From the NCBI GenBank assembly GCA_002684495.1, contig NYVG01000015.1, forward strand, positions 38,094 through 100,823: a stretch of DNA of 62,730 bases, in the 5' to 3' direction. Of the stretch, positions 7,828-57,478 are shown piece after piece (position 1 is the first letter of the stretch; each line of letters opens with the position of its first letter). The translations under genes were made by a program, and so were the position numbers. Origin of the DNA: Gammaproteobacteria bacterium. GTDB lineage: Bacteria; Pseudomonadota; Gammaproteobacteria; Pseudomonadales; Azotimanducaceae. The notes beneath the pieces were generated by a model. That model did no database searches. It saw only the letters and a program-made list of their open reading frames with translations, and was not told the DNA's origin.

Positions 7828-8663
7828 TCGACATCTGTGTAAACCTGCAGAACTCACAATTCGGCAACGACCGATCCGAGATTCTGGAGCGCGCAGCTCA
7901 GGCGGGAATCACCGGAATCTTAGTCTGCTCAACCGATCTTGATATGGTGTCGGCAAATCAGACGCTGTGTGAACGTGCTCAGGAAGAAACAAGCTGGCCG
8001 CAACTGCTGACCACGGCTGGCGTTCATCCTCACGATGCCCAAACTTGGAAAGAGACTGACAGCGAGCGGCTGCGCAAGCTCAGCAAACACAGCTTGGTAT
8101 CGGCAATCGGCGAATGCGGTCTGGATTTCAATCGCAATTTTTCCGAGCCAAAAGCACAAAGACGAGCCTTTCAGGCACAAATCGAGGTCGCCAGCGAAAC
8201 AACCCTGCCATTATTCGTTCACGATAGGGACAGCCAAGGCGAGGTTTTGCATTGGCTTAGCCAACCGATCTGGCCACCCAGCATTATTGTGCACTGCTTT
8301 ACTGGCAGTGCTGAAGAGCTCGACAACTATCTAAATGCTGACTGTTATATCGGCATCACCGGCTGGCTGTGTGACGAGGTGCGCGGGCGCGCACTCCGAG
8401 AACTAGCGCGCTTGATACCCGATAACCGCTTGATGATTGAAACCGATGGGCCATTTTTGCGACCGCATAATGCCCCGGAAAATGCCCGGCTGTTCCCAGA
8501 CACACTCGCCGCACTGAAGAAATACCGACGCCGGAACGAGCCGGCCTTACTGCCATTTGTATTGAACCAGCTAGCCCAGCTACGCGAGCAGAGTCCGCAA
8601 GAGTTAGCCCAATTGTGTTCAGCTAATGCGCAGCGGCTATTTGGCTTCGATAGGAGCGATTAA
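7824..8663 (+). CDS. tatD: TatD metal-dependent 3'-5' exonuclease
   Basis: Cytoplasmic TatD-family DNase of the amidohydrolase (TIM-barrel) superfamily, implicated in DNA repair and turnover. It matches E. coli TatD itself rather than YcfH/YjjV: the start MIDICVNLQNSQFGNDR is the counterpart of MFDIGVNLTSSQF, with Asn-Leu where most paralogues have the first metal-binding His pair. Further marks are AGVHPHDAQTW, AIGECGLDFNRNF, VHCFTGS and IETDGPFLRP. 279 residues is slightly longer than usual. Its stop overlaps the stop of the convergent oxygenase gene by four bases. Confidence 0.95.
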   Translation: MIDICVNLQNSQFGNDRSEILERAAQAGITGILVCSTDLDMVSANQTLCERAQEETSWPQLLTTAGVHPHDAQTWKETDSERLRKLSKHSLVSAIGECGLDFNRNFSEPKAQRRAFQAQIEVASETTLPLFVHDRDSQGEVLHWLSQPIWPPSIIVHCFTGSAEELDNYLNADCYIGITGWLCDEVRGRALRELARLIPDNRLMIETDGPFLRPHNAPENARLFPDTLAALKKYRRRNEPALLPFVLNQLAQLREQSPQELAQLCSANAQRLFGFDRSD

Positions 8664-9799
8664 ATCGACAGATCGTGCAAATTATAATCACGAATCACCC
8701 GCTGCCAATTCTCTTTTGAGTGCGCCAATTGTGCTTCTCGGCCCAACATAGGCAGATATTGATATCGCGATTCATCTGGATAGAACTGCTGGCGTGCATC
8801 GATCGCTACTGCAACAACCTGAGAGCGTCGGTCAATACGCTGTGCATCATAGACTTCGTCGTTCGACTGGCTTAGCGCACCGCGAGCGCCAAGGACTGAA
8901 GCCCGCCGATGAAAGCCGAAGGTCAGGGACACACGCATATCTTCTGACGTATTGGCGAATGAACCATGCAATGCTTGCCGATTAACAATGGTCACATCTC
9001 CTGCTGCGGCAAATAGCGGCACAGCGTCCGGCAAAAATTCAGACCCAGCGTTGTCAGCCACCCTCTGCTTTATATCCAACTTACCTTCCTTGTGGGTACC
9101 CGGCACTACCCATAGACAACTCTGTGCCGATGTATCGTAGAGCTGAACCTGAAAGTTAAAGCCGTGGATACCCTGATCCCACTGTGGCGAATCCCAATGA
9201 GTAACCCCATCCTGATGCCACGACACTGAACCGCCTAATCCAGGTTGTTTGATAAAAATCGCATCGTTATACGGGACAAAATCATCGCCATTGATGGAGG
9301 CTGCGATTTTCAACAAATCCGGATGGCCGTATAACCTAAGGCCGGCGTCCATGATTTGGCACATTCCCGACATCAAAAAAACTACCTTTTTGGGCGCACT
9401 TGAAGCCGATTCTGGCTGCGTCATTTTTGTCGGATGTCGACCATTGAGCTTATCAGTACCTCCCCAAGGATCTGTCAGGGGTGGTATCAGGGAATAAATC
9501 GGGCGCGCAAATTCCTGGCCAAAAGCGGGTCTACCCTGAGCGTCTTCCAATGCGCCATTGTCCACCGGCGCCAGCGCCAAAAGGTTTTCGATTTCTGTTT
9601 GCAGTAACTTTATCTCAGATGGGTCAATGACATCTTCAAAGACATAAAAACCCGTTCGCCAATACGCCGCTAAGATGTCCTCATGCAAACGACCCTGTTG
9701 ATCGAACCTTAAAGAACCACGATTTCCCAAGGCTAAAGCACGCGCCATGCCCTGACTCACATAACTCTGCTGAGCAAGCTGATATTCACTGGCTTTCAC
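8660..9799 (-). CDS. phytanoyl-CoA dioxygenase (PhyH) family oxygenase
   Basis: Non-haem Fe(II)/2-oxoglutarate oxygenase of the PhyH superfamily. 379 residues from a GTG at 9799, chosen because GGAGG lies 8 nt upstream; reading from the earlier TTG at 9814 would bury that site. The iron ligands are His195 and Asp197 in SWHQDG and a distal His278 in ALHGSFANTS; Arg289 is the likely 2-oxoglutarate anchor. The substrate cannot be deduced. Members act on acyl-CoAs, but also on ectoine, phosphonates and secondary metabolites. A glutaredoxin-like gene lies 30 bp upstream on the same strand, so the two probably form an operon. Confidence 0.88.
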   Translation of the reverse strand: MKASEYQLAQQSYVSQGMARALALGNRGSLRFDQQGRLHEDILAAYWRTGFYVFEDVIDPSEIKLLQTEIENLLALAPVDNGALEDAQGRPAFGQEFARPIYSLIPPLTDPWGGTDKLNGRHPTKMTQPESASSAPKKVVFLMSGMCQIMDAGLRLYGHPDLLKIAASINGDDFVPYNDAIFIKQPGLGGSVSWHQDGVTHWDSPQWDQGIHGFNFQVQLYDTSAQSCLWVVPGTHKEGKLDIKQRVADNAGSEFLPDAVPLFAAAGDVTIVNRQALHGSFANTSEDMRVSLTFGFHRRASVLGARGALSQSNDEVYDAQRIDRRSQVVAVAIDARQQFYPDESRYQYLPMLGREAQLAHSKENWQRVIRDYNLHDLSI

Positions 9800-9829
9800 A
9801 ACATGTCCCTCCAAAAACGCGGCCTCAAG

Positions 9830-10075
9830 TCAGCGCACGGCATTTTTCTGCAGCCACTCACGCAATTTTTCAGCATCAAACGGCGCGTCAAGCTGCGCGT
9901 CGCCAATAGCGACTACTGGAATACGCTGGCCAAATTCAACCATCAGTTCGTCGCTGGTGGCGATGTCTAATGTCCTAAGGGTACACCCCCTGATCTCCGG
10001 TATCGACAACAACAAATCCATTGCTGCATCACACAGACTGCAATGTTCAGTCGTATAGAGAACTATTTCTCGCAT
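9830..10075 (-). CDS. glutaredoxin-like protein (DUF836 type)
   Basis: 81-residue thioredoxin-fold protein beginning MREIVLYTTEHCSLCDAAMDLL. It has the redox pair Cys-Ser-Leu-Cys at the end of the first strand, a cis-proline segment QRIPVVAIG and the final helix EKLREWLQKN. This is the pattern of the DUF836/YruB-like glutaredoxin family. The ATG at 10075 is preferred because everything upstream is atypical. It likely reduces a small thiol or protein disulfide. It precedes the PhyH-type oxygenase in the same direction. Confidence 0.82.
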   Translation of the reverse strand: MREIVLYTTEHCSLCDAAMDLLLSIPEIRGCTLRTLDIATSDELMVEFGQRIPVVAIGDAQLDAPFDAEKLREWLQKNAVR

Positions 10076-48352: not shown

Positions 48353-49873
48353 CTAAAGCTCGTTGACCGCGATTTTATCAGCTATTTTCTGCGACCAGAT
48401 CTTTGGTCCTTCGATGTGTACAGAATTACCCTGGGAGTCGACACTAACGGTTACGGGCATATCCTCTACTTCAAATTCATAGATCGCTTCCATGCCCAAC
48501 TCCGGGAATGCAAGCAAGGTCGACTTCTTAATGGCCTTGGCCACTAAAAATGCCGCACCTCCAACTGCGATCATCGACACTGCTTGATTGTCACGAATCG
48601 CATCGATCGCCGCCGCCCCACGCTCGGCTTTGCCGATCATGCCTGCCAGACCGGTTTCTTCGAGCATGCGGCGAGTAAACTTATCCATACGCGTCGCGGT
48701 GGTAGGCCCTGCCGGCCCCACCACCTCATCGCGCACCGGATCTACCGGACCAACGTAGTAGATCAGGCGATTAGTAAAATCCACAGGCAGTGGCTCGCCC
48801 TTATCGAGCATATCAACAAGCTTCTTATGCGCTGCGTCCCGACCAGTAAGCATCTTGCCAGACAGCAATAACGTGTCACCAGATTGCCAGCTACGCAATT
48901 CTTCTTGGGTCAGAGTATCGAGATTTACCCGCTTCACATCACTGCCGAGTTCAAACTTAATGTCTGGCCACTCGTTAAGATCGGGGGCTGTAAATTCTGC
49001 AGGACCAGAACCGTCCAAGGTAAAGTGAACGTGCCGAGTAGCGCTGCAATTAGGAATCACTGCCACCGGCTTGTTGGCTGCATGAGTGGGATAGTCTTTC
49101 ACTTTGACGTCGAGCACCGTGGTCAGGCCACCAAGACCCTGGGCACCAATACCCAGAGCATTGACCTTATCAAAAAGCTCAAGGCGCAACTCTTGTATAT
49201 GATCCTCAGCCCCATTAGCTTTGAGCTCGTGCATATTCAGCGGTTCCATGAGGGACTCTTTTGCCAACAGCATCGCTTTTTCCGGCGTGCCACCGATTCC
49301 AACACCTAAAATGCCGGGGGGACACCAACCCGCCCCCATGGATGGGATAACACTGAGGATCCAATCCACCACGGAGTCCGAAGGATTCAGCATAGCGAAT
49401 TTTGCTTTGGCCTCACTGCCGCCACCCTTCGCCGCAACCTCAATTTCAACGGTATCGCCTGCTACTATCTTAGTGTGAATCACCGCGGGCGTATTGTCCT
49501 TGGTATTTGCGCGTAAGCCGTCTGGATCTGAGAGCACCGAGCCTCGGAGAACATTGTCAGGATGGGTATAGCCCCTGCGCACCCCCTCATTGATCATATC
49601 CTCAAGGCTCAACTCAGCATCCCAGCGCACATCCATGCCCACTGAAATCAGGACGTTAACAATTCCGGTGTCCTGACAGATCGGCCGCTTACCAATAGCA
49701 CACATCCGCGAGTTAACCAGCACCTGAGTAAGGGCCGCCTTTGCGGCCGGAGATTCTTCTTGCTCCCACGCTTGACGCATGGCACGAATAAAGTCCGTTG
49801 GATGGTAGTAGGAGATATACTGCAGCGCATCTGCAATACTTTGAATAACATCTTCCTGCTTAATTACCGTCAT
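48353..49873 (-). CDS. fumA: class I fumarate hydratase ([4Fe-4S])
   Basis: Iron-sulfur fumarase interconverting fumarate and malate. 506 residues with the two class I parts fused: an N-terminal alpha domain (KRPICQDTGIVNVLISVG, AAKGGGSEAKAKFAMLNPSD, GAGWCPPGILGVGIGGTPE, GIGAQGLGGLTTVLDVKV) and a C-terminal beta domain (LLLSGKMLTGRDAAHKKL, YYVGPVDPVRDEVVGPAGPT then TTATRMDKF). Cysteines in ICQDTG, GWCPPG and PNCSATRHVHF are placed as cluster ligands. The start overlaps the preceding gene by 14 bp, so it can be expressed from the selenoprotein operon upstream, which is an unusual arrangement. Confidence 0.95.
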   Translation of the reverse strand: MTVIKQEDVIQSIADALQYISYYHPTDFIRAMRQAWEQEESPAAKAALTQVLVNSRMCAIGKRPICQDTGIVNVLISVGMDVRWDAELSLEDMINEGVRRGYTHPDNVLRGSVLSDPDGLRANTKDNTPAVIHTKIVAGDTVEIEVAAKGGGSEAKAKFAMLNPSDSVVDWILSVIPSMGAGWCPPGILGVGIGGTPEKAMLLAKESLMEPLNMHELKANGAEDHIQELRLELFDKVNALGIGAQGLGGLTTVLDVKVKDYPTHAANKPVAVIPNCSATRHVHFTLDGSGPAEFTAPDLNEWPDIKFELGSDVKRVNLDTLTQEELRSWQSGDTLLLSGKMLTGRDAAHKKLVDMLDKGEPLPVDFTNRLIYYVGPVDPVRDEVVGPAGPTTATRMDKFTRRMLEETGLAGMIGKAERGAAAIDAIRDNQAVSMIAVGGAAFLVAKAIKKSTLLAFPELGMEAIYEFEVEDMPVTVSVDSQGNSVHIEGPKIWSQKIADKIAVNEL

Positions 49874-50969
49874 GGCTGTTCTTTTCCTTTAATTGAGCGC
49901 CGGCGCTAAGACCCGGCACCTCGCAAAACTGTTCTGTTTCAATTAGTTGGCTGACATACCGATTTCTATTCGCACCAGCACACCAACTTGGCATGACCAT
50001 AGAATAAAGTCCGCTACCGCCGGCCATTAACACCAGAATGTCTTCAGGCCGCTCAAAGCACCGATACTCTTGGTCACGGAACCGCGCAGCGAACCCTTTG
50101 GCGAAGTAGGCGAGCCGGTCTTTTGGATAGTGCGTAGCTTGCCAGAGGCCCTGCTGAATATCACCGCGGGTCATATTAGCCCGCGCAAAAATTTCTGCAT
50201 GTTCAGGATTTAAAACCACCGCGGCCCCGCCACCGGTAAGCACGGCATTATTAGTGCCCATATTGGCCACCCCGATCGCCAATACCTGCAGTAGTTTTTG
50301 GGCATCCTCCGGATCGTCCGCATCAGCGCTGTAGATTACCGAGTGCGGTGCTTCTGCACCTATTACCGTTACAACACTGTCTTCGGGCTGAAAACCCAGG
50401 TCTTCATGCATAGGCAAAAGTGGCGAGTGTTCTTCGTCCTCTGCTAGGCAGTAGGTAAATTTTCCCGGATGACCCAACAGCGCCATATCAGATTCGCCAG
50501 GACGGGCGCCACCGATATTCAACATACACAGGCGCAGTGCTCGACCAATGCTCGCATTGGCCCGATGACCGGGGCCCAGTGCACCAAAGCCCGAGGCTAT
50601 AGGACCACAGCTAAATCTTGCGGGTCCATTAACGATGATCAGGGGCGCGGTACAGTGAGTAGTCGATTGCATTTCGGTGAGATCAAATTCTGGCTGCAGC
50701 ACCGCTTGCACCGCTGCCAGCACTACCGGCATGTGATCGGGCAAACAGCCGGCCATACAGGCCGCCACCGCGACTTTCTCCACCGTCGCTGCGCCATTGC
50801 CCGGACCCATCTCGCCTAGCAGCAAATCCGCATCAAGACCCGTCGCCAAGACCAGCCGCGCAACTCTATCCGGCGTAGGAATCACTACTGGCAGCCCATC
50901 TGTCAGACCCTTACTGTGCAGTAACTCAAGTGCCTGAGTCTCATCTTCTGCTTGTAACAGATCAGTCAC
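49860..50969 (-). CDS. conserved protein of unknown function, partner of the UGSC selenoprotein
   Basis: 369 residues from a GTG at 50969, overlapping the selenoprotein stop by eight bases (GTGACTGA). I do not recognise the family. It starts with a conserved-looking TDGLPVVIPTPDRV and has many cysteines in glycine-rich settings: Cys71 and Cys75 (AACMAGCLPDHMPVV), Cys106 (STTHCTAPLIIVNGP), Cys121 (RFSCGPIASGFGALGPG), Cys148 and Cys174. No signal peptide or membrane helix. Repeated GG and APLIIVNGP-type strands suggest an alpha/beta metabolic enzyme. The tight coupling with a Sec-containing protein related to glycine-reductase-type components suggests a joint reductase or lyase; this is inference. 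Confidence 0.85.
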   Translation of the reverse strand: MTDLLQAEDETQALELLHSKGLTDGLPVVIPTPDRVARLVLATGLDADLLLGEMGPGNGAATVEKVAVAACMAGCLPDHMPVVLAAVQAVLQPEFDLTEMQSTTHCTAPLIIVNGPARFSCGPIASGFGALGPGHRANASIGRALRLCMLNIGGARPGESDMALLGHPGKFTYCLAEDEEHSPLLPMHEDLGFQPEDSVVTVIGAEAPHSVIYSADADDPEDAQKLLQVLAIGVANMGTNNAVLTGGGAAVVLNPEHAEIFARANMTRGDIQQGLWQATHYPKDRLAYFAKGFAARFRDQEYRCFERPEDILVLMAGGSGLYSMVMPSWCAGANRNRYVSQLIETEQFCEVPGLSAGAQLKEKNSHDGN

Positions 50970-51498
50970 GCAACCAGCCTTGAATCAGTATCGGGACGAT
51001 TTGCTTGGCCACCGAGCGTAAGTTTTCCACGCCAGTGCCTGCCAGTGGGTGCGGCAATTGCACCCGCGGAATATCCGGCATACCCAGCGACTTCGCAACG
51101 AAATCGCCCTGGGGCCAAAAGTCTTCTGTCACCAGTGCTACTGCGGGTATACCTAAGCGAGCCAAGTTAACGCCGTCACGCACGGTGCCGGAAGTGCAAC
51201 TACCTCAGTGGCCGTAAGCCGCCACCACCGCATGACAGCTCTCGCGTATCTCATGCAACATCGCCTCAGGCGCAGGAATTGAGGCGTTGCCTTTGTTCCA
51301 GAGCTTTAGGTTTACCGAGGGGTAGAGCGCCGTTATTGCGTCGCCAATCAAGCTGAGAAAGCGCTCGGAGTCAGCAAAGCCGTTGGCAAGCAAGCCGATT
51401 GTGGGCTTATCTTCAGCATTTGCCGCCATATCAAAAACAAGGTCATAAGATTCAACGGTTTGCGCCGAAGCGCCTGTAGGGTCATGGAATTCAATCAT
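50962..51498 (-). CDS. UGSC family selenoprotein (in-frame TGA read as selenocysteine)
   Basis: 178 residues with selenocysteine at position 98. Read as a normal gene it would be split into a 5' part ending ...AAYGH at the TGA (51205-51207) and a 3' part 50962-51183, but both are in one frame and the join reads AYGH-Sec-GSC-TSGTVRDG. Sec98-Gly-Ser-Cys101 is the name-giving motif of the UGSC (seleno)proteins described from marine metagenomes; the context also resembles the U-G-T-C motif and following AGIPVV strand of glycine reductase component B. The ATG at 51498 has GGGAG seven nt upstream and gives MIEFHDPTGASAQ. The C-terminal half (LARLGIPAVALVTEDFWPQG) is a Rossmann-like strand-helix. 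selA/B/C/D must lie outside the window. Confidence 0.88.
51169..51189 (-). promoter_or_regulatory. candidate bacterial SECIS hairpin
   Basis: Counting from the base after the TGA, nt 20-23 (CCGT) pair with nt 29-32 (ACGG) around the loop GCGTG; after an A/C mismatch nt 16-18 (GGC) can pair with nt 34-36 (GTT) by one C-G and two G-T pairs. The apical loop begins 23 nt after the TGA and starts with G, which fits the known bacterial model (loop 16-37 nt downstream, G among the first two loop bases). It is inside the coding region, as expected in bacteria. Confidence 0.6.
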
Positions 51499-51717
51499 CA
51501 GAGCACTCCCGTCTGTTGGCCTCATTGTTATCGAAAACGATGGCACAGTGAACCCTGCGGACAAAATTACCATTCCTGAATCAGCGCGCACGGTGCAACT
51601 GCCCGAGTTGCAACCAAACCATAAACCTGCGACACGGTCTCGGATCGAGCGGCAAACTTGGACATTAATAAGACAATAATTTTGTTATGCTACATGGTCA
51701 ATTCACAGGAGAATCCT

Positions 51718-52584
51718 ATGAAACCTAATCAAATTGGCCTAATCGCGGCAGCAGGCATTGTGGTCGTGCTTTTATTCAGCAGCTTCGTTATCGTCGACAG
51801 TGGCCAGGTGGGCGTTGTGCGCACCCTAGGTGCTGTTCAGCCAGAGGCTCTCAAAGAAGGTTTTCACTTGAAAAAGCCATTCATCGACAGCATCGAGCAA
51901 ATTGATGTGCGCTTGCGCAAAGCAGAGAATGAAGCGGGCGCTGCCTCGAAAGATCTGCAGGTCGTACAGACTCGTGTCGCCGTTCAATATTCGTTAACCG
52001 CTGATGTAACTCCGCTGACGTTCCAGAAAATTGGTCCCAGAGCAATTGTTGAAAGCACTCTGATCAATCCAGCGATTATGGAATCGGTCAAAGCAATTAC
52101 TGCTTTGTACACGGCGGAACAACTGGTCACTAGCCGAGCCGAAGTTAAAAACAATATCCAGAGTGCTATTGAAGAATTCATCAATACCACACTAGAGCAA
52201 AAAGGCGTTGCTGGTGCTTTAAGCCTCGCAAACGTAGCCATAACAGATTTCGATTTTTCTTCAGAATTTAATCGCGCGATCGAAGAGAAAGTAAAAGCTG
52301 AGCAAGAAGCACTGAAGGCTAAAAACGAAAAACTACGGCGCGTCACCCAAGCCGAAGCCGCCGCCGCTGAACGAGAACTGGCTGCAGACGCCGAAGCCTA
52401 CCAAATCGAGGCTGCGTCGCGAGCCCGAGCCGAGGCCATCCGCCGCGAAGCCGAAGCACTGAAAGACAATCCCGAACTGATTCAGCTGCGCATAGCAGAG
52501 AAATGGAACGGTCAGTTACCTCAGGTCACCGGCGAAGGTGCCTTACCCTTGCTCAATATCGATGCTATGCAGGGACGTCGCTAA
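51718..52584 (+). CDS. prohibitin/SPFH (Band 7) family membrane protein
   Basis: 288 residues from the ATG at 51718 with AGGAG eight nt upstream; the longer reading from 51658 has no such site. One N-terminal anchor (7-25, IGLIAAAGIVVVLLFSSFV), then the SPFH domain beginning VDSGQVGVVRTLGAVQPEAL and GFHLKKPFIDSIEQIDVRL, and a long Ala/Glu/Lys-rich coiled coil (about 195-265). The architecture matches prohibitin-type scaffolds that form large rings in the membrane and often hold FtsH. It diverges from the selenoprotein operon with a shared 219-bp spacer. Confidence 0.92.
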   Translation: MKPNQIGLIAAAGIVVVLLFSSFVIVDSGQVGVVRTLGAVQPEALKEGFHLKKPFIDSIEQIDVRLRKAENEAGAASKDLQVVQTRVAVQYSLTADVTPLTFQKIGPRAIVESTLINPAIMESVKAITALYTAEQLVTSRAEVKNNIQSAIEEFINTTLEQKGVAGALSLANVAITDFDFSSEFNRAIEEKVKAEQEALKAKNEKLRRVTQAEAAAAERELAADAEAYQIEAASRARAEAIRREAEALKDNPELIQLRIAEKWNGQLPQVTGEGALPLLNIDAMQGRR

Positions 52585-52587
52585 CCG

Positions 52588-53787
52588 TCAGTCGCTCGTA
52601 ATGACAACGCCATCGCGCACCAGTTGCGCGATATAGGCGTCGTCAAAGTCCATCGACCGCAAGACCGCTAAACTGTCTGCACCCACTTCGGGGGCGCGTT
52701 TTGGCGGTCGCTTGGGCTCGTCTTTGATTTGAATAGGCGAGCCTACGGTGAGCGGATAGTCACCACCGTCTTCGCCGGTTTCAACAATGATGCCATTTGC
52801 ACGCAACTGCTCATCTGCAATAACGTCCGCCATAGTTTGGGCTTCAGCAAACGTCACACCTAAGCGCTCCAGTCGCTCAGCGATTTCGTCGTATATCTGG
52901 GACTCGAACGCTTCGCACATCATGCGGTAAAACAGATCGCGATGCTGCATGGCCTGAGTGATATCGCAAAAGCGCTCGTCTTGTAGCCAATCTTTATGCC
53001 CGAGTGCTTCACACAACAGCGGGTACTCTCGCGCCACATTAACAATCGCCAGCACGATATAGCGCTCATCCGCACAGCGATAGCAGTCGCCTAATGGCGC
53101 AGGCCAACTGCCTTTCTGACGGCGCGAGCCCAAATCCTGGCCGGCAATGACGCCCTGTATCGCCATACCGTTGGCCCATACACCATTGGCCGCTAGAGAG
53201 GTGCTGACATGACAGCCCTCACCTGTGCGCTCACGACGATAGAGCCCACTCATGATTGCAGCGAAAAGGGCCGTCGCAGTGCTGTGATCGCCCATACCCG
53301 GCGCCGGCAATAACGGCACCTGACCGGGATCGCGAATCAATTCCATCATGCCACTGCGCGCCCACCAACCGGTGACATCAAACGCCCGGCGATTAGCGTC
53401 GGCACCAGCGTCACCGTAACCGGTAATGTGGCCATAGATCAGTCTAGGGTTCACCGCTTTAACTGCGACGTAATCCAACTTGTAGCGCTGTAATTGGTCA
53501 GGTAGAAAATTTGTGGTCATCACATCGGCTTGCGCAAGCAACCGATGCAAGACCTTTTGACCTTCATCCTTGGTGAGGTCTAACGCCAAACTACGCTTAT
53601 TCCGAGACGTCAATTGCCAGTGATATGGCACCGGATAACGCCCCACAAGGCTTCGATAGCCGTCACCCTCGGGGGGTTCAATCTTTATTACCTGGGCACC
53701 GTAGTCCGCCAAGATTGTGGCCGCTCCCGGCCCAGCCAAAAATGTGGCTGCATCAATGACCGTTAGGTCTTCTAAGAAATAGCTCAT
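52588..53787 (-). CDS. CaiB/BaiF family class III CoA transferase
   Basis: 399 residues, with a run of G before the ATG as ribosome binding site. Motifs: LTVIDAATFLAGPGAATILA, YGAQVIKIEPPEGDGYRSL, SLALDLTKDEGQKVL, TNFLPDQLQRYKLDY, YGHITGYGDAGADA, and the catalytic Asp in RRAFDVTGWWARSGMM. Tryptophans near the active-site Asp and the short C-terminus differ from formyl-CoA transferase, so the acid substrate is open. Its stop is 4 bp from the end of the convergent prohibitin gene. Confidence 0.93.
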   Translation of the reverse strand: MSYFLEDLTVIDAATFLAGPGAATILADYGAQVIKIEPPEGDGYRSLVGRYPVPYHWQLTSRNKRSLALDLTKDEGQKVLHRLLAQADVMTTNFLPDQLQRYKLDYVAVKAVNPRLIYGHITGYGDAGADANRRAFDVTGWWARSGMMELIRDPGQVPLLPAPGMGDHSTATALFAAIMSGLYRRERTGEGCHVSTSLAANGVWANGMAIQGVIAGQDLGSRRQKGSWPAPLGDCYRCADERYIVLAIVNVAREYPLLCEALGHKDWLQDERFCDITQAMQHRDLFYRMMCEAFESQIYDEIAERLERLGVTFAEAQTMADVIADEQLRANGIIVETGEDGGDYPLTVGSPIQIKDEPKRPPKRAPEVGADSLAVLRSMDFDDAYIAQLVRDGVVITSD

Positions 53788-54086: not shown

Positions 54087-54983
54087 TTGAGCAATACCCC
54101 ATTCTGGTACGACGCCGCCTTACAAATGCCCAGCAATACCGCCCAAGTTACCGTGGCTGGAGCAACCATTGAGTATGCAACTTGGGGAGAAGTCGGTAAC
54201 CCCGGCATCGTGCTCATTCACGGCAGCAATGCCCACTTAGAATGGTGGCGGTTTACCGCACCGTTTTTGGCCGATCGATTTAGGGTAGCGGCACTAGATT
54301 TATCAGGGAATGGCAACAGCGACTGGCGCGAGCGCTACAGTGGCGAACTCTTTGCTCAAGAGGTTTGGGCGGTATGCGAAGCAGCGCAGCTGGGCGCGCG
54401 CCCATTTGTGGTCGGCCACAGCTTTGGCGGCTTTGCCGCACTAGAAACCGGGCATCATTACGGCGACCGTCTGGGCGGCGTGCTGTTTATGGACTTCACC
54501 GTGGCACCACCGGAGGAATACATCGAATGGGGCCTGCGCGTAGAACGAGAAGGCGTGCAACCCGGCCGCAAATTACGCGTGTATCCAGACAAGGAAACCG
54601 CCATGGGGCGCTTTCGACTGATTCCAGAACAGCCAGGTGTCGCACCGGAACTGCTAGAGCATATGGCCAATTACGGACTCAAAGAAGTCGAGGGCGGGTG
54701 GACCTGGAAATTCGATCCCGCCCTATTCGACTATCTGGAAATGGGCGTAGACCAACAACAAAAGTTCATCGATATGCGCTGTCCTACAGCGCTTATGCTG
54801 GGTGAACAAAGCGAGGATGAGGGCGCTCTATACGGAGACTCTATGTTGGCCGCGAGCGGCGGCACCCTGCCTACCATTACAGTACCCGGCACCTACCACC
54901 ATCTGATGTTTGACCAGCCTATAGCGGTGGCGATGGCAACGAAACTATTGTTACTTGAGTGGTGCCGATCCAGCGCTGCTTGA
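54087..54983 (+). CDS. alpha/beta hydrolase
   Basis: 298 residues from a TTG at 54087 (alternative ATG at 54129). Fold motifs: IVLIHGSNAHLEWWRF (oxyanion HG), nucleophile Ser112 in VVGHSFGGFAAL, and the C-terminal histidine in GTYHHLMFDQP; the acid is probably Glu or Asp in MLGEQSED. Similar to epoxide-hydrolase/ester-hydrolase members; substrate unknown. Its 3' end overlaps the convergent GPH transporter gene by 33 bp, which is unusual but leaves both reading frames intact. Confidence 0.88.
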   Translation: MSNTPFWYDAALQMPSNTAQVTVAGATIEYATWGEVGNPGIVLIHGSNAHLEWWRFTAPFLADRFRVAALDLSGNGNSDWRERYSGELFAQEVWAVCEAAQLGARPFVVGHSFGGFAALETGHHYGDRLGGVLFMDFTVAPPEEYIEWGLRVEREGVQPGRKLRVYPDKETAMGRFRLIPEQPGVAPELLEHMANYGLKEVEGGWTWKFDPALFDYLEMGVDQQQKFIDMRCPTALMLGEQSEDEGALYGDSMLAASGGTLPTITVPGTYHHLMFDQPIAVAMATKLLLLEWCRSSAA

Positions 54984-56288
54984 GGCCAAAGCCTGCTTAA
55001 TGCGCGCATGAGCCTGCTCATCTAATGGATGCAGGCGGGCCAGCACGATAAGTACCACCATTAAAATCAAGGGCACTAGGGTGAACATCTCATGGATACG
55101 TGTCAGCGTGTCAGGATTCTGTGTTTGATTGGCAATATAGCCGGCCATGCCCAACCCCAGAGCCACCCCTGCGCCACCCAAGGCTTTGGCGAGCTTTTGA
55201 AAGAAACTTGCCATGGAATAAATCGAGCCATCGGCGCGGATACCTAACTTCCACTGCGCATACTCCACGGTATCTGGAATCATTGCCCATCCCAGCACGG
55301 CAACCGGCGTGCCGCCGAGCGCAATCAGACATCCCCAGAAGAACACCCAACCAACAGCGTCTGGCGAAGTCATATAAAATCCCAAACAGGCGAAAATGGT
55401 TAGCCCTGCTCCAATGATCAATGCTCCCGACTTTCCATATCTGGCTGCGAGCAGCGGCACGCAAGTTAAACCTGCTAGCATCACTAGGAGGGTTGCTGCG
55501 AAAAAGTAGGAAATCAGATCTGGGCGCCCTAAATAGTAGATAAAGTAATAGGCGGTGAGAGTCTGACGAACAGTAAAGCTGAGCATACCGCAACAGAAGA
55601 TGCCTATGACAATCAGCAACGGTGGATTTAAAAACACCGCCTGTAGACTGTGACGAAATGTTAATTCTTGCTCAACTGGCGGCACTACCTGCTCTTTCGT
55701 GGTTGCAAACGTAATCAGCAACAGGCCGGTGGAGATAAAGGCAAAAACCACCATCAAGGCTTGAAACCCGTCAGCCCGACTGTCGAATAATTCAACGAAT
55801 GGCATCGTGCCGACGGATACCACAAAGGCGCCAATAAAGGCGCAGGCCATTCTCCAGGTAGACAGTTGAGTACGGGCCCCGTAGTCGTCGGTCAATGACG
55901 CGGTCAATGCCGAATACGGAATAGTCACTACGGTATACAACACCCCGAACAGCAAATACGTAGTGTAGGCCCACCACAGTTTGCCGGTGTCATCGAGATC
56001 CGGCACTGTGAACGTCAACACAGTTATGGCGGCAAGTGGCAAGGCACCTAGAATCAACCAAGGCCGTAGACGACCGAATCGCGTACGTGTGCGGTCAGCC
56101 AGCATACCCATCAGCGGATCCGTTATGGCATCCACCACCCTAGCTAAGGCGATAACACCCGCTGCCGCCGTCGCCGATAACCCCATGACATCCGTATAGA
56201 AAAGCAACAGGTAGGTCATCGCAGAAATAAAATAAAGGTTGATCCCTAGATCACCTACCGCATAACCGAGTGATTCTTTAAGACGCAT
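54951..56288 (-). CDS. GPH-family MFS transporter (sugar/cation symporter type)
   Basis: 445 residues from the ATG at 56288, which overlaps the stop of the CoA transferase (TGATG). Twelve membrane helices and the glycoside-pentoside-hexuronide family marks YAVGDLGINLYFISAMTYLL, DAITDPLMGMLADRTRTRFG then RLRPWLILGA, and IPYSALTASLTDDYGARTQL. MelB-like proteins use sodium or protons; those next to CoA-pathway genes in this group of bacteria may carry non-sugar substrates. Confidence 0.92.
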   Translation of the reverse strand: MRLKESLGYAVGDLGINLYFISAMTYLLLFYTDVMGLSATAAAGVIALARVVDAITDPLMGMLADRTRTRFGRLRPWLILGALPLAAITVLTFTVPDLDDTGKLWWAYTTYLLFGVLYTVVTIPYSALTASLTDDYGARTQLSTWRMACAFIGAFVVSVGTMPFVELFDSRADGFQALMVVFAFISTGLLLITFATTKEQVVPPVEQELTFRHSLQAVFLNPPLLIVIGIFCCGMLSFTVRQTLTAYYFIYYLGRPDLISYFFAATLLVMLAGLTCVPLLAARYGKSGALIIGAGLTIFACLGFYMTSPDAVGWVFFWGCLIALGGTPVAVLGWAMIPDTVEYAQWKLGIRADGSIYSMASFFQKLAKALGGAGVALGLGMAGYIANQTQNPDTLTRIHEMFTLVPLILMVVLIVLARLHPLDEQAHARIKQALASSSAGSAPLK

Positions 56289-57478
56289 CAAACGATGACG
56301 CTCTGGGATTGCAAAGACTGAATTTCGTCAGCTTCAAGGCCTAATTCGGCAAGCACCACAGCACTGTCCGCACCAGCATCCGGAGCCGCTCGATGAAACC
56401 GTGAAGATTGCGGAAAGCTGGATAAATTGATCGGCGAGCGCACCAAATTCAGGTCGCCGAGTTGTGGATGAGGTGCAGGTTTCGCCATGGCTAGATGCTG
56501 AACCTGTGGATCCTCAAAAGCCTGACCGATGTCGTTGATTGGCCCACAGGGAACGCCAGCTTCATTCAAACGCTGCACAAGTTCCGCAACCGTATATGTG
56601 CGAGTAATCTGATTCATATCCTGCTTAATCTGTTCGCGCTTACCTACGCGATCTCTCACACGCTGATAATCTGCATGGGCAAATAGCTCACTGGCGCCAA
56701 GAGCATCACAGAAGCGCTGCCACATCTGACTGCCAAACGCGGCTATATTCACATGGCCATCCTGGGCTTCAAAAGTCCCCATCGGCACTTGGGTAGGATG
56801 ATCATTGCCCTGTTGGGTAGGAACATCGCCATCCATGGTGTAGCGGGCACCCTGAAAATCTAACTTGCTGAGCATGGCCTCCAATAACGAGGTGTGTACC
56901 CACTGCCCCTCCCCTGTGCGCTCCCGGTGCAGTAATGCAAGCAAGATACCTTGGCCAAGGAACATCCCCGCCGAGGTATCAGAAATTGCCACGCCGACGC
57001 GCATAGGGCCAGTACCGGGCTCGCCAGTTACGGACATAAGGCCGCTCATACCCTGAACAATTTGATCGACGCCAGGGCGACTGCGATACGGGCCGTCCTG
57101 CCCAAAACCGGAAATACTCGCGTAAATAAGGCTTGGATTAATGGCACGCAAAGTGTCGTAGTCCACGCCCAAGCGAAATTTCACATCGCTGCGAAAGTTC
57201 TCCACCACCACATCTGCATCAACCGCCAAACGATGAAACAACTTTTGACCTGTCGCACTCTTTAAATCGATGGCCACGGAGCGCTTATTACGGTGCAGAT
57301 TTTGCTCGTCTGAGCCACGCCGACTGCCGGTTACGGAACTACCTTGGGCGTCTTTGCTCGGCGGCGGCTCTACTTTAATGACGTCTGCACCCCAATCGGC
57401 CAGCAAACGCACTGCCGTAGGGCCTGCACGTGCAATAGTTAAATCCAATACCCGAATATGATCTAACGGCCCCTGCAT
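56288..57478 (-). CDS. CaiB/BaiF family class III CoA transferase
   Basis: 396 residues. Motifs: IRVLDLTIARAGPTAVRLLA, WGADVIKVEPPPSKDAQGS, RNKRSVAIDLKSATGQKLF, VENFRSDVKFRLGVDYDTL, YASISGFGQDGPYRSRPG, and the catalytic aspartate in PGVDQIVQGMSGL. The C-terminal segment reads PDAGADSAVVLAELGLEADE. The transporter gene overlaps its stop, which suggests the imported compound is activated by this enzyme. Confidence 0.93.
   Translation of the reverse strand: MQGPLDHIRVLDLTIARAGPTAVRLLADWGADVIKVEPPPSKDAQGSSVTGSRRGSDEQNLHRNKRSVAIDLKSATGQKLFHRLAVDADVVVENFRSDVKFRLGVDYDTLRAINPSLIYASISGFGQDGPYRSRPGVDQIVQGMSGLMSVTGEPGTGPMRVGVAISDTSAGMFLGQGILLALLHRERTGEGQWVHTSLLEAMLSKLDFQGARYTMDGDVPTQQGNDHPTQVPMGTFEAQDGHVNIAAFGSQMWQRFCDALGASELFAHADYQRVRDRVGKREQIKQDMNQITRTYTVAELVQRLNEAGVPCGPINDIGQAFEDPQVQHLAMAKPAPHPQLGDLNLVRSPINLSSFPQSSRFHRAAPDAGADSAVVLAELGLEADEIQSLQSQSVIV

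Follow-up and report, generated by a model that had tools for sequence, protein, structure and literature searches.

The locus described here raises two questions: whether a reading frame broken by a single in-frame TGA codon encodes a selenoprotein, and what such a protein would do together with the gene that overlaps its end. It lies in a stretch of 62,730 nucleotides (hereafter the window) of contig NYVG01000015.1 from a gammaproteobacterium of the Azotimanducaceae (assembly GCA_002684495.1, here G000; 3.33 Mb, 98.7% complete, 5.4% contamination). On the minus strand, the frame that starts with ATG at 51498 and ends with its true stop, a TGA at 50964-50962, is broken solely by another TGA at 51207-51205. 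Joined across that codon, the gene (50962..51498) encodes 178 amino acids with selenocysteine (Sec, U) at position 98, in the context AYGH-U-GSC-TSGTVRDG. GGGAG, a possible Shine-Dalgarno sequence (51506..51510, minus strand), stands 7 nt 5' of the ATG, and the downstream gene begins with a GTG at 50969, thereby overlapping the stop by eight bases. The initial annotation had described a frame open but for this TGA and continuing in phase beyond it, a good ribosome binding site and an eight-base overlap with the next gene at 50962, and all of these particulars were verified.

The same annotation had assigned the product to the UGSC type of selenoproteins, and profile searches bore this out. The Pfam model PF24696 ("UGSC family") matched with 145 bits (E-value 2.7e-42, cut-off 25), aligning residues 5-175 with positions 3-170 of a profile of 172. 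The NCBIfam model UGSC_fam (NF041046), a search of which had been proposed as a check, also matched (2.6e-29), but its 102.1 bits fell under the equivalog cut-off of 125; among ten members scanned singly, L065, L093 and L113 were below it as well. NF041046 alone would therefore not name the window protein. For comparison, the window protein, two further copies from G000 and 77 of the 84 UGSC rows recovered at partner loci (see below) were combined in an 80-row alignment, A2, from which L044, L072:5813, L075:16479, L097:935, L102:5093, L105:184 and L114 were left out for Ns, cuts or distance. PF24696 matched all 80 rows. The [U/C]GSC motif was present, with columns 98 and 99 of A2 invariant and columns 100 and 101 nearly so.

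Column 98 held Sec or Cys in all 80 rows (65 TGA and 15 Cys codons), so that the Cys homologues for which a search had been advised do exist. The same TGA recurred in 67 of 82 UGSC sequences spanning more than five phyla. Compared with its nearest relative, L035, the window protein had identical residues at 71 of 97 positions before the TGA and at 72 of 79 after it. The proportions of synonymous differences (pS) were 0.75 before and 0.58 after the codon, against nonsynonymous proportions (pN) of 0.14 and 0.05, which points to purifying selection on both sides. Furthermore, pN was below pS on both sides in comparisons with L035 and with 27 of 28 other members of the window's clade; the one comparison that departed from this, with L068, was mis-aligned, probably because 7 of the 522 bases of L068 are ambiguous.

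The genes for Sec decoding were also to be looked for in the same genome, and all were found in G000. Its tRNA-Sec scored 68 bits (cut-off 47), with ARAGORN in agreement, and selA, selB and selD each exceeded a curated cut-off. selA, selB and the tRNA-Sec gene lie together on contig C8, and selD on the window's own contig, C7. G000 carries three UGSC genes, each with exactly one TGA. Across genomes, selB exceeded its cut-off in 33 of 35 carrying the TGA form versus 5 of 15 carrying the Cys form (Fisher p 1.5e-5, a value that overstates the association, as many of the genomes are incomplete metagenome-assembled genomes and the sequences are related). This sample comprised 50 of the 80 loci, including all 15 Cys loci; L113, which has both forms, was counted as Cys. 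In five of the 80 loci (L075, L097, L098, L099 and L106), selB was located in the fetched flank, of up to 8 kb, of the UGSC-partner pair, and the flank of L098 also holds selA. These observations bear on two other accounts of the TGA. One takes it as a true stop, or as a sequencing error, with the halves as remnants of a pseudogene. Bacterial genes do decay, and two fragments are what a standard annotation might record, but the recurrence of the TGA in several phyla, the purifying selection that persists after it, the frozen codons downstream (see below), the co-occurrence of selB and the two further TGA-bearing copies in G000 leave this account with almost no credence. The other, that the TGA is decoded as some other amino acid or passed by general stop read-through, is equally remote, as 15 of the 80 rows have Cys here, the genome carries the genes for Sec decoding, and the hairpin described next weakens in Cys relatives. 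We regard it as practically certain that this TGA is read as Sec in a member of the UGSC family.

A bacterial selenocysteine insertion sequence (SECIS) lies directly after the UGA and has a G early in its loop. A predicted hairpin core of this kind, CCG.CAC[CGUGC]GUG.CGG, occupies 51173..51191 on the minus strand, 16-34 nt after the first base of the TGA. Codons 104-108 (GGC ACC GTG CGT GAC) were identical in all 29 TGA sequences compared from the window's clade, which derive from Gammaproteobacteria, Acidimicrobiia and one Chloroflexota genome; these are 29 of the clade's 31 TGA sequences, without L068 and L044 (many Ns, motif with TGA visible). As a baseline, the commonest codon of a conserved residue outside codons 99-109 accounts on average for 54% of its occurrences. 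In the stem CCG.CAC/GUG.CGG, five of six pairs were intact in all 30 of the clade's TGA sequences counted and the sixth in 29 (a count made without L044 and the short L072:5813), and a C-G pair was swapped for U-A in four sequences that together form one subclade. In the clade's four Cys relatives, 12 of 24 hairpin cells were paired.

The main family has its own version of the stem. In its 39 TGA sequences, a pair formed by two third codon bases was G-C in 19 and C-G in 18; this pair and four neighbouring ones were kept in 36 to 39 of the 39, and four further pairs in 18 to 28. Because the switch between G-C and C-G tracks a Trp/Cys codon on one side, while the opposite third base is free for Val/Leu and not for Ile/Met, it could in part be protein-driven. 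Among 11 main-family Cys relatives, the same five pairs were kept in 8, 0, 2, 7 and 11, and the stem thus appears to be partly, not wholly, lost. Folding energy by itself lent the hairpin no support: pieces of 50, 60 and 90 nt at the TGA folded no better than shuffled sequences (z +0.6 to +1.8). A simple hairpin rule was satisfied by 57 of 67 TGA sequences versus 47% of their codon-shuffled versions; for Cys sequences the figures were 7 of 15 versus 45%. Codon freezing and pair counts are stronger evidence than this rule, and on them we take the hairpin as the predicted SECIS.

In a maximum-likelihood tree of the 80 proteins, the window protein was nearest to L035, within a clade of 34 rows (30 Sec and 4 Cys; support 100/99, stem 1.45). 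The root serves only for display, and L062, on its long branch, is of uncertain position. Because the clade mixes Gammaproteobacteria, Actinomycetota, Alphaproteobacteria and Chloroflexota, its composition suggests gene transfer. The tree requires at least five changes between Sec and Cys, three of them forced by well supported branches. The UGSC gene was found in 5 of 398 genomes of the phylum, the window's own included. Unlike the main UGSC family, with which it shares the Sec-Gly-Ser-Cys motif and size, the window protein thus belongs to a separate clade with its own hairpin version and a score below the NCBIfam cut-off; the clade motif is GH-UGSC-T[S/T]G-TVRD, versus D-UGSC-TSC-S.HD in the main family. 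We also observed a Cys-form UGSC gene (L031 and L034; G277:C6:12789-13246) that is seemingly split across two frames, by error or decay.

The gene that overlaps the UGSC stop (49860..50969, minus strand) starts with GTG and encodes a protein of 369 amino acids, hereafter the partner, that matched no Pfam or NCBIfam family and, by sequence, had no convincing relative among solved structures. The initial annotation had noticed this overlapping gene and had not recognized it as the usual partner of the family. All three UGSC genes of G000 adjoin a partner homologue (37% and 33% identity for the other two). A scan of GTDB genomes with the three G000 partners gave at least 584 confirmed relatives, of which the best 80 loci were analysed. 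In 75 of these 80, UGSC was located nearby on the same strand, a count which tells how often the partner has UGSC and not the reverse, since the partner was the query of the scan and only the 80 nearest loci were retained. The five loci without UGSC were L059, L076, L101, L103 and L109, two of which (L059 and L076) lie on short contigs. Among the 76 loci with a clean partner frame, UGSC came first in 48, the partner came first in 24 and there was no UGSC in 4. The gap between the two genes was below 250 nt in 68 of 72 pairs (exceptions: L069, L071, L100 and L105), and 19 of the 48 UGSC-first loci showed a stop-start overlap of 4 or 8 nt.

Furthermore, the two genes form one continuous frame in L072, L074, L075 and L104. 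The Global Ocean Sampling (GOS) survey of selenoproteins depicts a UGSC/Unknown_1 fusion, in which UGSC is joined to an unnamed conserved domain (PMC2398784, Fig. S1A). These four fusions are probably the same arrangement, with Unknown_1 corresponding to the partner; the window differs from it in having two separate overlapping genes. In a partner alignment, A3, made without L043, L059, L068, L080 and L101, only two Cys residues were conserved, C174 invariantly and C75 nearly so. A thioredoxin-like domain is fused to the front of the partner at L024 (PF00578, 28 bits, cut-off 26), and a weaker one, below cut-offs, stands at the N terminus of the partner at L112. The L024 protein (8361-9941, minus strand), which bears its N-terminal domain of the AhpC/TSA type, is a paralogous partner in the same genome. 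From the linkage we infer that the two proteins form a complex, and consider it very probable that UGSC and its partner are the subunits of one enzyme. A highly divergent second UGSC type (UGSCTPAVxRAS) was also observed beside ordinary UGSC-partner pairs, at L075:16479-16988, L097:935-1384 and L105:184-420; the first two of these loci also hold selB.

What kind of protein bears the Sec was addressed with an AlphaFold2 model (predicted local distance difference test score, pLDDT, 95.5; predicted template modelling score, pTM, 0.89), as comparison by sequence gave nothing convincing for UGSC among solved structures. The model shows a domain of alternating alpha and beta elements, in which Sec98 lies between a strand (90-96) and a helix (99-114). 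Its best Foldseek matches were flavodiiron proteins, azoreductases and TIR domains, with template modelling (TM) scores by query below 0.5, and the fold is predicted to be flavodoxin-like. A thioredoxin-like fold was expected for UGSC in the GOS survey (PMC2398784) and is implied in a 2026 review (PMC13188914), but the predicted order of strands and helices and the Foldseek matches rule it out for the model. This matters for the idea that the selenoprotein is a plain thiol-redox protein, of the disulfide reductase or peroxidase type, which serves the partner enzyme with no selenium-carbon intermediate. UxxC is a classical redox motif, thioredoxin-like domains are fused to the two partners noted above, and the review places UGSC among thioredoxin-like redox proteins. 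Set against this are the predicted flavodoxin-like fold with Sec at the start of a helix, the flavodiiron, azoreductase and TIR matches, and a profile similarity to GrdB that is reduced when the motif is masked. We consider a plain redox role doubtful, if still a substantial possibility.

That profile similarity concerns GrdB and PrdB of the glycine, sarcosine, betaine and D-proline reductases (PF07355, TIGR01917, TIGR04483), to whose C-terminal Sec domain UGSC aligns Sec on Sec. In a table of the 2008 survey, pfam07355 is given for GrdB and PrdB, and no domain for UGSC (PMC2398784). The initial annotation, while right in taking the family as the known UGSC type, had not noticed this possible kinship. 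The NCBIfam GrdB model TIGR01917 matched 14 of 80 UGSC members (best 5.2e-5) and the PrdB model TIGR04483 matched 5, all far below cut-off, and three further GrdB-type models matched 1 or 2 members; the GrdB-model matches align near the C-terminal end of GrdB. Using hhalign, A2 aligned with five Chloroflexota GrdB homologues over 133 columns, Sec on Sec, with a probability (Prob) of 92% and a P-value of 6.4e-7. These were five of nine homologues fetched, L126, L127, L132 and L133 being outside the motif filters. Against a single GrdB homologue, Prob was 88%. One reversed and eight column-shuffled controls gave at most 1.1%, and the partner, the sole unrelated Cys-motif family used as a control, gave 0.2%. 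GrdB/PrdB and UGSC also have in common the UxxC motif and a Sec subunit encoded beside a second gene.

Several results weigh against a common origin. Masking residues 98-101 lowered the hhalign Prob from 92% to 25% (P 7.8e-4, 84 columns, same register), and much of the signal is therefore the shared motif. Prob was only 17% (P 0.0015, Sec on Sec) against ten PF07355-type proteins of this phylum, and the window protein itself had no match to PF07355, TIGR01917 or TIGR04483 at an E-value of 0.1. The model of napF, a ferredoxin-type and evidently unrelated protein, matched 4 of the 80 members (best 9.5e-5), Cys residues presumably being the cause. Compared with GrdB/PrdB, the window protein is without the N-terminal GrdB domain and the third Cys of UxxCxxC (it reads U-G-S-C-T-S-G), a Cys that does occur in other UGSC clades. 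Its partner is not of a recognized pyruvoyl type, matching none of the pyruvoyl-forming NCBIfam or Pfam families of GrdE/PrdA, and profile scans found it dissimilar to GrdE, PrdA or any family. The candidate identification of the partner as a GrdE/PrdA-like subunit or as a GrdB relative had no support in profile comparisons. On balance, the profile alignments suggest that UGSC is probably a remote homologue of the Sec domain of the glycine reductase protein GrdB. Two further observations concern GrdB-type proteins. The Chloroflexota homologue L130 reads U-G-S-C-N-R-C, a literal UGSC motif inside a GrdB-type protein, and G000 has three GrdB/PrdB-type (PF07355) genes at C48:519421-519801 (L115), C48:326664-327029 (L116) and C35:71048-71473 (L117). 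In each of these, an in-frame TGA precedes PNC or PVC, and they are likely to encode three more selenoproteins.

For the reaction, its substrate and its reductant, we infer a scheme in which the likely kinship with the Sec domain of GrdB/PrdB suggests chemistry by selenium attack on carbon. A selenolate can act by nucleophilic attack. The genome's own SelA, SelB, SelC and SelD would decode the TGA as Sec, with the downstream hairpin serving as SECIS. UGSC would be the small Sec-bearing subunit, and the product of the overlapping partner gene the other subunit, holding the substrate. With a small carboxylate or CoA thioester bound to the partner, the Sec98 selenolate would attack one of the substrate's carbon atoms, a leaving group would be lost and a selenium-substrate adduct would form. 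Cys101 would then resolve this adduct to give a selenenylsulfide, which a thioredoxin-like protein would re-reduce. This is our best explanation as a whole, from Sec decoding through a two-subunit enzyme to selenium-carbon chemistry, and we hold it tentatively, with somewhat less than even confidence. More specific, and rather unlikely in our estimate, is the proposal that UGSC and its partner are a minimal, widely transferred relative of glycine reductase outside strict anaerobes: a cut-down Sec domain derived from GrdB with a substrate subunit of a new type, reductively cleaving a carbon-heteroatom bond of a carboxylate or CoA thioester at the expense of a thioredoxin-type reductant. Action on a carbon-heteroatom bond in a setting other than the reduction of amino acids has been proposed for GrdB-type proteins, in a GrdB-like operon for fluoroacetate defluorination (PMC10838667); that operon belongs to anaerobic Synergistota, and the abstract of the report names no UGSC protein.

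The genomic context gives this mechanism a weak direction, through a class III CoA-transferase and other neighbours. Downstream of the partner, and overlapping its end by 14 nt, a gene for a class I (Fe-S type) fumarase-like hydro-lyase of 506 amino acids (48353..49873, minus strand) is the probable third gene of the transcription unit. Upstream, an SPFH/HflC-like gene, named by eye, lies on the opposite strand (51658-52584) between UGSC and a class III CoA-transferase gene of the CaiB family (52588..53787, minus strand), a possible pathway neighbour. A second class III CoA-transferase gene was observed at 56288-57478, and genes for an alpha/beta hydrolase (54087-54983, named by eye) and a GPH-type symporter (54951-56291) stand between the two.

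The fumarase-like neighbour raises the alternative that UGSC and the partner make up a dehydratase- or lyase-like enzyme, in which the partner would be a fumarase-like or cyclic-amide-hydrolase-like catalyst and Sec would have a supporting part. The fold model of the partner (pLDDT 92) had as its best, weak Foldseek matches class I fumarases (E-value 3.3e-4) and Toblerone-fold cyclic amide hydrolases. However, none was a clear fold match, with TM by query at most 0.27 and, for the fumarases, a root-mean-square deviation of about 15-17 Å, which also leaves our preferred two-subunit explanation with no clear fold for its substrate subunit. Furthermore, C75 and C174 are the only conserved Cys residues of the partner, and a fumarase-like gene stands at this place in only 1 of 80 loci (L037). 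We judge a lyase-like enzyme improbable.

Nor do the neighbours single out a substrate for the proposed selenium-carbon chemistry: they vary and indicate no single one. In a scan of 134 of the 146 listed neighbour frames, restricted to the same strand, the most frequent Pfam families for the main family were TctC receptors (9 of 75), class III CoA-transferases (6) and acyl-CoA dehydrogenases (4). For the window's clade they were acyl-CoA dehydrogenases (4 of 59 frames), sulfatases and short-chain dehydrogenases (3 each) and class III CoA-transferases (2). In 11 main-family loci, a class III CoA-transferase gene with the orientation of UGSC comes after it at a distance of no more than about 0.5 kb. 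Within the window's clade, L037 alone repeats the set of fumarase-like, CoA-transferase, hydrolase and transporter neighbours, and these four types are therefore no constant part of the system.

The initial annotation had called the family rare and marine. This did not hold: the GOS survey counts UGSC as one of its major selenoprotein families, with 255 Sec sequences, and reports it as more frequent in non-marine samples (PMC2398784), and in metagenomes from water it has ranked since 2008 with the most frequent selenoprotein families (PMC2398784, PMC9402790). UGSC-motif selenoproteins are also described in Geodermatophilaceae whose tRNA-Sec has the anticodon CUA (PMC5330540). Such proteins are largely uncharacterized according to the 2026 review (PMC13188914). 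A literature text search returned no paper with "UGSC family", nor with "UGSC" together with "thioredoxin fold", and the passages on UGSC selenoproteins contain no link of UGSC to GrdB and no linkage to a partner beyond the fusion. The family was thus known by 2008, with its function uncharacterized, and the window protein adds to it a member from a deeply separated clade. What is new here is the linkage of UGSC to its partner, the flavodoxin-like fold predicted for it and its possible remote kinship with GrdB. Falling below NCBI's own cut-off, the window protein may well stand annotated as fragments, and the partner, with at least 584 confirmed relatives, is without a Pfam or NCBIfam name. 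A partner gene, a corrected predicted fold and a possible link to an understood selenoenzyme would together make UGSC a testable two-subunit enzyme.

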